This document shows, in pieces, positions 2,390 through 4,788 of a DNA stretch of 15,443 nt. The DNA is from an uncultured Lachnospiraceae bacterium (GTDB lineage Bacteria > Bacillota > Clostridia > Lachnospirales > Lachnospiraceae), in NCBI GenBank assembly GCA_949935685.1, contig CATLGN010000011.1, forward strand, positions 1 to 15,443, written 5' to 3'. Position numbers and translations under genes: made by a program. Positions within the stretch are counted from its first letter, which is position 1. Each line of letters starts with the position of its first letter. The notes beneath the pieces were generated by a model. That model worked only from the letters and a program-made list of their open reading frames with translations, did no database searches and was not told the origin of the DNA.

Positions 2390-3268
2390 TCATTGAGAAA
2401 AATCGGCTTGCAGCGTTTCCAGCAGCCGTTTGGCAATGGGGGTAAATGCCTGATGTTTTTTCCAGATCAGATAAATCCGGGTTTCCAGCGGGGGAGAGAG
2501 CGGGCGGAATACCAGTCCGCTGCCGGGACTCGTGTCGATCAGATGCCCGAATGTGAGAAGATACCCAAGGCCTTCCCGGACAAAGAGAGAACCGTTATAG
2601 GACAGGCGAAAGGAGCCCTCCAGACGGAGCCGGTCTCTCTTATTGCCGCACCATCGGGGAATATCATGATGCCAGCCCTGTTCGGAACAAAACAGCGGCA
2701 GACCGGCCAGATCTTCCACGCCGATGGCCGGTTTGTCAGCCAGGGGGCAGTTTTCGGGCATAATAACGCCCCATTGATCGGCTTCGGGAAAGGGCAGATC
2801 ATAATATTTCGCCGTGTTTGGTTCCTGCGCCAATACCGCAAAGTCAATAACGCCCTTGTCCAGCTTTTCCGTGACCTGTTCCGTGTCGCCGCTGGTGATG
2901 TGATAGCGTATTCCGGGACAGGCGTTCTTCAATTTTCGAAGAGCCGCGGCCAGGTATCGGATCTGGTAAGACTCCGCCAGGCCGAGATAGACATCGCCGC
3001 CCAGAACATCGTTTAATGTGGAAAATTCCGTTGTGATTTTATCAGCCATCTTCACCAGATCTTCTGCCCGTCTGCGCAGCAAAATGCCTTCCTCGGTTAG
3101 TTGAATGCGAAAGCTGTGCCGTATGAAAAGTTTTTTGCCGAGTTCGTCTTCCAGTGATTTCAGTTGTTTCGAAAGTGTCGGCTGCGTGACATGAAGCGCC
3201 TGTGCGGCGCGGGTCATGTTTTCCTCTCTTGCGACTGCCAGAAAATACCGCATCGTCCGCAGTTCCAT
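2390..3268 (-). CDS. LysR-type transcriptional regulator
   Basis: This is a 292-residue LysR-family regulator, the usual length. The winged helix-turn-helix is at residues 1-60: MELRTMRYFLAVAREENMTR, then AAQALHVTQPTLSKQLKSLE and LFIRHSFRIQLTEEG, the standard LTTR signature. Residues about 90-292 form the periplasmic-binding-protein-like effector domain, beginning GGDVYLGLAES. The start at 3268 is chosen because AGGAGGG (3275-3281 on the minus strand) lies 6 bp upstream and the protein then begins exactly like family members; an in-frame ATG 39 codons further upstream lies beyond the promoter. It is divergent from the alpha/beta hydrolase at 3808, the classical LTTR arrangement, so it probably controls that gene and itself through the palindrome at 3295-3316. 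The effector is unknown. The reading frame is intact. Confidence 0.95.
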   Translation of the reverse strand: MELRTMRYFLAVAREENMTRAAQALHVTQPTLSKQLKSLEDELGKKLFIRHSFRIQLTEEGILLRRRAEDLVKMADKITTEFSTLNDVLGGDVYLGLAESYQIRYLAAALRKLKNACPGIRYHITSGDTEQVTEKLDKGVIDFAVLAQEPNTAKYYDLPFPEADQWGVIMPENCPLADKPAIGVEDLAGLPLFCSEQGWHHDIPRWCGNKRDRLRLEGSFRLSYNGSLFVREGLGYLLTFGHLIDTSPGSGLVFRPLSPPLETRIYLIWKKHQAFTPIAKRLLETLQADFSQ

Positions 3269-3349: not shown

Positions 3350-3355
3350 TATAAT
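3350..3355 (+). promoter_or_regulatory. Orphaned -10 box that probably belonged to the hydrolase gene
   Basis: TATAAT faces the hydrolase gene and lacks a recognisable -35, as is common for LTTR-activated promoters. The 10-bp duplicated sequence TAATAGAATC begins at 3352, inside this box, so the 400-bp element now separates it from its presumed gene. A transcript started here would cross the whole palindrome. Confidence 0.5.
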
Positions 3356-3361
3356 AGAATC
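3352..3361. repeat. Left target-site duplication of the 400-bp element
   Basis: TAATAGAATC directly abuts the first base of the element and is repeated exactly, in the same orientation, at 3762-3771 against its last base. Confidence 0.8.
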
Positions 3362-3761
3362 CACGATAAACGCATGAATGGACAAACTGTGAACATTTTA
3401 TAAACTGAGCCGGACAGCAGTGGAAAAGCCCTGCAGCGCATTACGCTTTCGGCGGAGACGTCCCGTCCCGGCCATACGCCGGGCTGCGGGCATAAGCGGT
3501 TCTAAGCGCAGCGGCAGCAGATACCGGCAGGCGTGCAACCGGCCTCTATGCGCCGTCCGGGCGCAAATCGGCCTTTTCCGGACGTCCATGTCCGGAAATT
3601 GCGGGTCATGGCGCAGCGCCAAGAACCGCTAATGCCCTTTGCAAGGCGCATGGCCGGGATGGGACGTCTCCGCCGGAAATCCATCATCCTCTCAGGGCTT
3701 TTCCATTTCTGTCCTTTCGACACATTGTGTTCACAGTTTGTTCATTCGTGCGTTTGCCGTG
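3362..3761. mobile_element. 400-bp palindromic MITE-like element, non-coding
   Basis: The whole interval is one imperfect inverted repeat centred near 3560. Outer arms 3362-3395 and 3728-3761 pair at 30 of 34 positions (ends CACG...CGTG). The block 3448-3480 pairs with 3645-3677 at 30 of 33, including the exact 15-mer CGGCGGAGACGTCCC (3450-3464 with 3661-3675). TGGAAAAGCCCTG (3421-3433) pairs exactly with 3693-3705. At the centre, GCGCC-GTCCG-GGCGC (3550-3564) closes the structure; a separate 9-bp hairpin (3575-3598, arms TTTCCGGAC) sits on the right side. A 10-bp direct repeat flanks it exactly. No credible open reading frame or transposase is inside; the short ORFs on each arm are mirror images produced by the palindrome. 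Length, symmetry and target duplication fit a miniature inverted-repeat element mobilised in trans; the parent family is not identified. It fills most of the 539-bp gene-free gap between 3268 and 3808. Confidence 0.75.
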
Positions 3762-3765
3762 TAAT
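3738..3765 (+). promoter_or_regulatory. Possible hybrid promoter at the element/target junction
   Basis: TTGTTC (3738-3743, inside the element end), a 16-bp spacer and TGTAAT (3760-3765) could drive the hydrolase. The TG comes from the element and TAAT from the duplicated target. Both boxes are degenerate, so this is a weak call. Confidence 0.25.
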
Positions 3766-3771
3766 AGAATC
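3762..3771. repeat. Right target-site duplication of the 400-bp element
   Basis: TAATAGAATC, identical to 3352-3361, follows the terminal CGTG of the element and lies 36 bp before the hydrolase start codon. Confidence 0.8.
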
Positions 3772-3807: not shown

Positions 3808-4788
3808 ATGGAAGAGATTCACAAAATGCAACTGGAGAATATGTGGGATAAAACATTCCCGAAAAGCGAAAAAGTCAACCATCGGAAAGTGACATTCCAT
3901 AACCGCTATGGCATTATGCTGACGGCTGACCTGTACGAGCCGAAAGGCGCAGCAGGCAGACTGGCGGCTATTGCGGTGTGCGGCCCGTTTGGCGCAGTGA
4001 AGGAACAGGCAGCCGGTCTGTACGCGCAGACGATGGCGGAACGGGGGTTTTTGACAATTGCCTTTGATCCGTCGTTTACCGGTGAGAGCGGCGGAACACC
4101 GCGCTATGTTGCCTCCCCGGACATCAATACGGAAGATTTTCAGGCGGCCGTTGATTTTTTGTCGGTGCAGGACAATGTCGACCCGCAAAAAATCGGTATT
4201 ATCGGCATCTGCGGATGGGGCGGCATGGCGCTCAATGCGGCGGCAATCGATACGCGGATTCGGGCGACGGCAGCCGCAACCATGTATGATATGACCCGCG
4301 TCAATGCAAAAGGATATTTTGATGCGGAAGACAGTGAAGACGCCCGCTATGAAAAACGCAGGACGCTAAACGAGCAGCGGATTCGGGATTTCCAAAGCGG
4401 CGCGTATGCGCTTGCAGGCGGTGTGGCAGATTCCCTTCCGGCTGACGCTCCATTCTATGTAAAGGACTATTATGATTACTATAAAACCGATCGCGGTTAT
4501 CATGCCCGTTCGTTAAATTCCAATGGCGGTTGGAACATTACCTCGGCATTGTCTTTTCTGAATATGCCCATTTTACAGTATGCCGGCGAGATACGCAGCG
4601 CCGTTTTGATTATGCACGGTGAAAAGGCACATTCATGCTATTTCAGCAGAGATGCTTTTGAAAAGCTGAAAGGAGACAATAAAGAACTGCTCATCATTCC
4701 CGGCGCGGTCCATACGGATCTGTACGATCGGACCGATGTGATCCCGTTTGACAAGATGGAAGCGTTTTTCCGGGAATACCTGCAGTAA
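3808..4788 (+). CDS. Alpha/beta hydrolase with Cys at the nucleophile elbow (YcjY/dienelactone-hydrolase-like)
   Basis: This 326-residue cytoplasmic alpha/beta hydrolase has no signal peptide. The start at 3808 is preferred because the protein then begins MEEIHKMQLENMW and AAAGGACAGGA lies about 8 bp upstream; the in-frame ATG at 3727 lies in the inserted element. Core landmarks are the VCGPFGAVKEQ oxyanion-loop region (about 58-67), GFLTIAFDPSFTGESGG (about 80-96), the nucleophile elbow GICGWGG with Cys135 replacing the usual Ser, LIMHGEKAHS (about 267-275) and the likely catalytic His302 in IPGAVHTDLYD. A GxCxG elbow is known in dienelactone hydrolase and in the YcjY-like branch of uncharacterised hydrolases, so esterase or C-C/C-O bond hydrolysis is plausible but the substrate is unknown. 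It is divergent from, and probably regulated by, the LysR-type gene. It ends 40 bp before the yceD promoter. Confidence 0.85.
   Translation: MEEIHKMQLENMWDKTFPKSEKVNHRKVTFHNRYGIMLTADLYEPKGAAGRLAAIAVCGPFGAVKEQAAGLYAQTMAERGFLTIAFDPSFTGESGGTPRYVASPDINTEDFQAAVDFLSVQDNVDPQKIGIIGICGWGGMALNAAAIDTRIRATAAATMYDMTRVNAKGYFDAEDSEDARYEKRRTLNEQRIRDFQSGAYALAGGVADSLPADAPFYVKDYYDYYKTDRGYHARSLNSNGGWNITSALSFLNMPILQYAGEIRSAVLIMHGEKAHSCYFSRDAFEKLKGDNKELLIIPGAVHTDLYDRTDVIPFDKMEAFFREYLQ

Follow-up and report, generated by a model that had tools for sequence, protein, structure and literature searches.

A 400-bp palindromic element between a lysR and a hydrolase gene

The window, by which we mean the whole 15,443-nucleotide stretch analysed here (contig CATLGN010000011.1 of an uncultured Lachnospiraceae bacterium, the host), carries a LysR-family regulator gene on the minus strand (2390-3268) and an alpha/beta-hydrolase-type gene on the plus strand (3808-4788), with a palindromic element between them. 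The element is flanked by two identical 10-bp repeats, TAATAGAATC, at 3352-3361 and 3762-3771, which we take as a target-site duplication from the identity of both copies and from the 10-bp repeat length found across the family. Exactly 400 bp lie between the repeats (3362-3761) and form an imperfect palindrome, just as a first, sequence-only reading of this DNA had described. Its left terminal inverted repeat (3362-3395, plus strand) begins with CACGATAAACGCATG, and the right one occupies 3728-3761 on the minus strand; both resemble the IRL end of ISAs1 insertion sequences. These outer arms do pair at 30 of 34 positions, with an axis near 3561-3562. Subterminal arms follow on the left (3396-3480) and on the right (3645-3727), and enclose a core at 3481-3644. 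Regarding the inner complementarity, there are indeed paired blocks inside the palindrome (3447-3516 with 3609-3678, 70 nt, 81%; 3412-3433 with 3693-3714, 22 nt, 91%), but the block of 30 matches in 33 reported earlier could not be reproduced as such. Similarly, the 5-nt loop placed at 3555-3559 exists, but it belongs to one of two small hairpins, the other lying at about 3575-3598; the centre of the palindrome is a junction with two hairpins and not one simple loop. As already proposed, the element has no coding capacity, its open reading frames being short or running through from outside. We also folded 3352-3771 as DNA and as RNA from both strands, and none of 100 shuffled versions folded as well (z -15.5 for DNA, -16.6 for plus-strand RNA and -13.7 for minus-strand RNA).

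What had been overlooked is that the centre, judged by its match to the Rfam model, is a TwoAYGGAY RNA (RF01731). The core matches the family on the minus strand over its whole length (model positions 1-168), with 98 bits against a cut-off of 43. It shares with TwoAYGGAY the two GGA loops and the tandem G-A step: hairpin 1 (3575-3598, minus) has its loop GGA at 3585-3587, and hairpin 2 (3541-3573, minus; local stem 3549-3565), which contains the G-A step, has it at 3556-3558.

The gap between lysR and the element contains a promoter-like site (3342-3314), which makes it unlikely that the predicted lysR transcript includes the core. On the other side, the start codon of the hydrolase gene is 37 bp past the end of the right duplication (3771). 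In a genome of the same genus (G007), the element is missing between the orthologous LysR and hydrolase genes (70% and 74% identity, respectively); their intergenic region has other sequence in its place and gives no Rfam match at E 1. Elsewhere in the window, two tandem repeats that are almost identical (PPRYKS.CDLMNCSGNHISVKDPSTGLDLYFCVPQNLTYSVDEYRT) make up a small protein (1672-2262), and a perfect 15-bp inverted repeat follows it at 2311-2349.

Dispersed copies with ISAs1-type ends

The host assembly is fragmentary (2.0 Mb in 361 contigs, 69% complete) and contains 55 matches to the TwoAYGGAY core, 54 of them over the cut-off. An early round of copy scoring covered 40 of 100 candidates. 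By pairing inverted ends found within 700 bp of each other, we obtained 39 elements, 38 from the host and one from a relative (G006), ranging from 67 to 427 bp; copies decayed in both core and ends would escape this search. Twenty-five of the 39 measure 385-412 bp, and all 25 hold a core match. The 10-mers flanking the elements agree at seven or more positions in 16 of the 39, compared with 10 of 1,482 mismatched pairings, and five elements have perfect 10-bp duplications (L001, which is the window copy, L005, L018, L103 and L105). When stricter criteria were applied, leaving 33 host pairs, the best repeat length was 10 bp at zero offset, with an identity of 0.61 vs 0.26. Decay of the duplications showed no significant correlation with the divergence of ends, arms or core, the best value being that of the ends (rho 0.39, p 0.056). 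The presence of dozens of copies elsewhere in the host genome, whose 10-bp duplications differ from copy to copy, together with the element-free site in the relative, bears out the earlier view of an insertion element. The recent de novo formation suggested for the window copy does not hold, since this copy belongs to a diverged multi-copy family.

Some short members lack the core and still show perfect or near-perfect duplications: L103 (152 bp, perfect, TwoAYGGAY not reaching the cut-off), L105 (427 bp, perfect, no core match at the gathering threshold) and L111 (240 bp). Since L103 and L105 are perfectly duplicated, the core is not needed for movement. At 12 loci with other members or single ends, TwoAYGGAY stayed below the cut-off. 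Six host loci (L101, L102, L104, L107, L109 and L110) are lone ends with no partner nearby; several loci of this kind run soon into ordinary gene sequence, and those at contig ends may be cut-off elements. Five places in the host (L062, L066, L069, L070 and L012, corresponding to host C53, C97, C160, C22 and C65) hold two cores 144-342 bp apart, always minus then plus, and comparable pairs occur in G017, G046 and G001. We do not treat the host pairs as independent cases, as those of C22, C97 and C160 look like one composite. Phages and plasmids gave no match at E 1e-5.

The sequence-only reading found no parental transposase evident from the termini; the parent can now be assigned to the ISAs1 family. 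The terminal CACGACAAACGCATG of the element is common to 1.25-kb ISAs1-family insertion sequences of related bacteria and to MITEs derived from them. Allowing at most one mismatch, we found matches to the end motif in 27 of 98 genomes (the host and its relatives), some of them by chance; a control pattern also matched in some genomes, and single end matches there can therefore be fortuitous. In one relative (G051), we identified a 1,252-bp element whose ends are perfect; it is flanked by a 9-bp duplication and encodes a transposase of 373 residues. Another relative (G012) has two 1,252-bp elements related to it, with 70% identical transposase and duplications of 10 and 9 bp. The transposases of the G051 element and of one G012 copy are ISAs1 transposases (NF033564, 1.9e-105 and 2.5e-106; PF13808 and PF01609). 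Such transposases exceed the cut-off in 10 of the 98 genomes, including other genera of the host's family, and none was found in the 69% complete host assembly or in the other nine genomes of its genus. The G051 element (L197, 1232-2483) is inserted in regularly spaced repeats that by eye resemble a CRISPR array. In another genome, G097, the ISAs1-type end motif was matched 99 times and the control pattern not once, and there is no TwoAYGGAY match; going by its ends, this is another large putative MITE population of the same type.

In named genome contigs, the long end pattern was present in at least 117 stretches, mostly in records of Lachnospiraceae or its genera. These gave 80 loci, all of which we examined. 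Paired ends were found at 18, and 13 of these 18 elements measure 1,224-1,255 bp; in most of the 13 the transposase was judged by reading-frame length only, and L277, L288 and L292 have shorter frames. Perfect 9- or 10-bp duplications flank 8 of the 13. ISAs1 elements in general make 8-10-bp duplications. We compared the MITE end with both ends of the insertion sequences. With the IRL, which is the end before the transposase start, 29-31 of 34 bases matched in every one of 16 rows, of which two are duplicates (L266 and L324, both among the 13, are identical in sequence to L198 and L197); with the opposite end, the IRR, only 18-25 of 34 did. According to this difference, both MITE ends look derived from the IRL.

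Hence, the element is short, non-coding and multi-copy, and it shares with ISAs1 elements both the terminal inverted repeat and the duplication length (10 bp, against 9 or 10 bp in the 8 of 13), the transposase family having been tested for two of them (G051 and G012). It is almost certainly a MITE whose ends are of the ISAs1 type. Its movement would be the work of a transposase of this type supplied in trans, which would have recognised both IRL-like ends, transposed the 400-bp unit and generated the 10-bp duplications. Unlike the ISAs1 insertion sequences, the element has 400 bp and no transposase gene, has IRL-like sequence at both ends, is palindromic throughout and contains a structured RNA core. 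Among described MITEs, QMITE1 and QMITE2 (PMC5896051) likewise occur in about 50 copies, QMITE1 being palindromic and 300-400 bp long, and such MITEs are described there as a source of small RNAs, which the present element may be as well; the part of that paper available to us connects them with no ISAs1 parent and no Rfam RNA core, and does not mention CsrA.

Conservation of the core and homogenisation of the arms

To compare core, ends and arms, we used the 25 host copies of 385-412 bp out of the 39 end-paired elements. Mean pairwise identity was 0.85 for the core and 0.89 for its two hairpins; the ends reached 0.74 and 0.70, and the subterminal arms 0.66. Between nearest copies (20 pairs), divergence was 0.109 in the core, 0.198 in the subterminal arms and 0.211 in the ends; the core was less divergent than the arms in 17 pairs and than the ends in 18 (Wilcoxon p ~6e-5 and ~2e-5, respectively, values that serve as guides because pairs share copies). 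Measured against the family consensus, the core was lower than the arms in 25 of 25 copies and lower than the ends only in 16 of 25 (p 0.011). In the two copies with ends that have diverged from the consensus by 0.38, the cores still lie within 0.104 of it. An alignment of 51 host cores, in which 4 of the 55 matches were left out for being partial, has 45 invariant columns out of 168, and the two halves of the tandem G-A step are kept in 51 and 47 of the 51.

These values suggest that the TwoAYGGAY core is probably kept by selection. Whether this selection acts on RNA was addressed by a strand test, which was flat: within the core, among pairs common to the folds of both strands, G-U amounted to 29 and A-C to 25. 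The ratio obtained with Rfam's own pairs (142:65) was not used, as a few fixed columns dominate it.

Related cores were also found in palindromes with other ends, of about 305 bp in G002 and about 295 bp in G051, so the core and the ISAs1 ends are separable in evolution. Around the G002 palindromes, five pairs gave a weak duplication signal, with a best fit at 7 bp (identity 0.71 vs 0.34), and 13 pairs from G051 gave none. We searched for a parent of these other ends without finding one; for the G002 type, no paired ends more than about 360 bp apart appeared among the matches listed.

Taken together, we assign a probability of roughly 0.75 to the reading in which the element is an ISAs1-type MITE that spreads a selected TwoAYGGAY RNA module. 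One could argue that it is instead a purely selfish ISAs1 MITE with the core as passive filler, its conservation being due not to function but to the history of subfamilies, to exchange between copies or to biased detection. The movement of the core-less L103, L105 and L111 fits this account, and so does insertion without a strong orientation to genes: with a simple ORF caller, downstream neighbours of the host copies are same-sense in 28 cases and antisense in 20, and upstream neighbours in 16 and 29. This orientation bias is not strong and is too weak to build on. Against passive filler, conservation is higher in the core than in the ends, on which transposition depends, the core is matched in every one of the 25 elements of 385-412 bp, and its relatives in G002 and G051 sit between different ends. 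We therefore regard the selfish account as unlikely, if still a serious competitor. Under the selected-module reading, selection would keep the RNA core after insertion while the ends decay.

The palindrome itself could also be taken as evidence of selection, and the sequence-only reading had seen in its paired arm changes a hint of this kind. The changes are real: both sides have changed in 20 of the 24 pairs in the ends, 33 of the 47 in the subterminal arms and 9 of the 38 in the core. Yet they are weak evidence for selection on the fold, as arms within a copy are more alike than arms of different copies. In the 25 copies, the two arms of one copy are 0.865 (ends) and 0.853 (subterminal) alike, against 0.765-0.781 for arms of other copies, and a left end is no closer to the left ends of other copies (0.771) than to their right ends (0.773). 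By this measure the two arms of a copy undergo concerted evolution. Paired changes by themselves are then no proof of selection on RNA, and we do not use covariation to demonstrate an RNA function. One possible cause is template switching between inverted repeats, which is reported to make arms alike (PMC8604942) and would do so without selection. The excess of G-U over A-C in the subterminal arms (47:25) would favour selection on a folded RNA or DNA, but there is none in the ends (29:35) and hardly any in the core (16:14). We consider it improbable that selection on the fold, and not mutation copying one arm onto the other, produced the paired changes. The general caution is that covariation in palindromic elements can stem from homogenisation of the arms and not from selection on RNA.

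Finally, a native cis-regulatory RNA of the neighbouring genes with no insertion involved, as the intergenic position 37 bp ahead of the hydrolase start codon and the Rfam class of TwoAYGGAY (cis-regulatory) could suggest, is ruled out for practical purposes by the dozens of dispersed copies with their own duplications, the element-free G007 site, the location of the core on the strand opposite the hydrolase gene and the inconsistent orientation to genes.

TwoAYGGAY, CsrA and transposition

TwoAYGGAY was detected in 15 of the 98 genomes (threshold E 0.001), 14 of them exceeding the cut-off, and, in a class-wide sample, in 35 of 393 (26 over the cut-off). Rfam places it in clan CL00106, which we take to be the CsrA-binding clan. 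In the accessible parts of the literature, its name occurs a single time in the discovery paper, as a table entry (PMC2864571), a later paper proposes that it binds CsrA (PMC4333381), and Rfam 15 updates its structure (PMC11701678). It has so far figured there as a candidate stand-alone RNA (PMC2864571, PMC4333381), whereas here it forms the middle of an element that is present in many copies and flanked by target-site duplications, and those parts of the three papers describe no mobile element for it. We found no report linking it to a transposon in a search that largely missed subscription papers. While both kinds of object are known, the combination of an ISAs1-type MITE and a TwoAYGGAY core appears to be new within the literature searched.

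Regarding CsrA, GGA is present in both loops of all 51 host cores. The base before it varies (commonest letter in 28 and 40 of 51) and so does the base after it (42 and 33 of 51), and, with 45 of 168 columns invariant, GGA is not alone in being so. We then compared 67 hand-picked cores, 61 from seven relatives and six from the host. In two of the seven relatives, GGA has disappeared from one loop or from both: 13 of 14 G002 cores have CGA in loop 1, and in G017 GGA is absent from both loops in all four cores. The replacement in these genomes is CGA, and once CGG, and both encode CsrA; a shift in the partner or role of the RNA is a possible reading of this change.

The host itself encodes CsrA (90.2 bits), in a gene that sits among open reading frames recognised by eye as flagellar. 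CsrA exceeds the cut-off in all 15 TwoAYGGAY-positive genomes vs 51 of the 83 others (Fisher p 0.002, ignoring kinship), and within the host's family TwoAYGGAY occurs in 14 of 37 genomes with CsrA vs none of 23 without it (p 0.0004, again ignoring kinship). Binding of the core RNA to CsrA through its two GGA hairpin loops is consistent with these associations, and we propose it tentatively. The loops would then either titrate CsrA or bring neighbouring transcripts under its control, a consequence about which we are equally tentative. GGA in hairpin loops is also the feature that the core shares with CsrA-sequestering RNAs of the CsrB/RsmY type; those are single-locus RNAs, whereas the element would provide two candidate sites per copy in dozens of dispersed copies.

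With a core kept by selection while its ends decay, the element would be a carrier that spreads an RNA module to sites between genes, and our findings allow a catalogued orphan RNA family to be re-read as the conserved heart of multi-copy, transposon-type elements, giving TwoAYGGAY both a vehicle and an insertion-sequence family. A bolder generalisation, for which we would not bet at even odds or near them, is that TwoAYGGAY elements are mobile CsrA modules, in which transposition has copied paired CsrA-binding hairpins and selection keeps them; the core would also have been carried by element families with different ends. If it were true, dozens of intergenic sites per genome would act as a dispersed RNA sponge titrating CsrA or, alternatively, the genes next to the copies would be drafted into the CsrA regulon. 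The spread of binding sites for a global RNA-binding regulator by transposons becomes testable.
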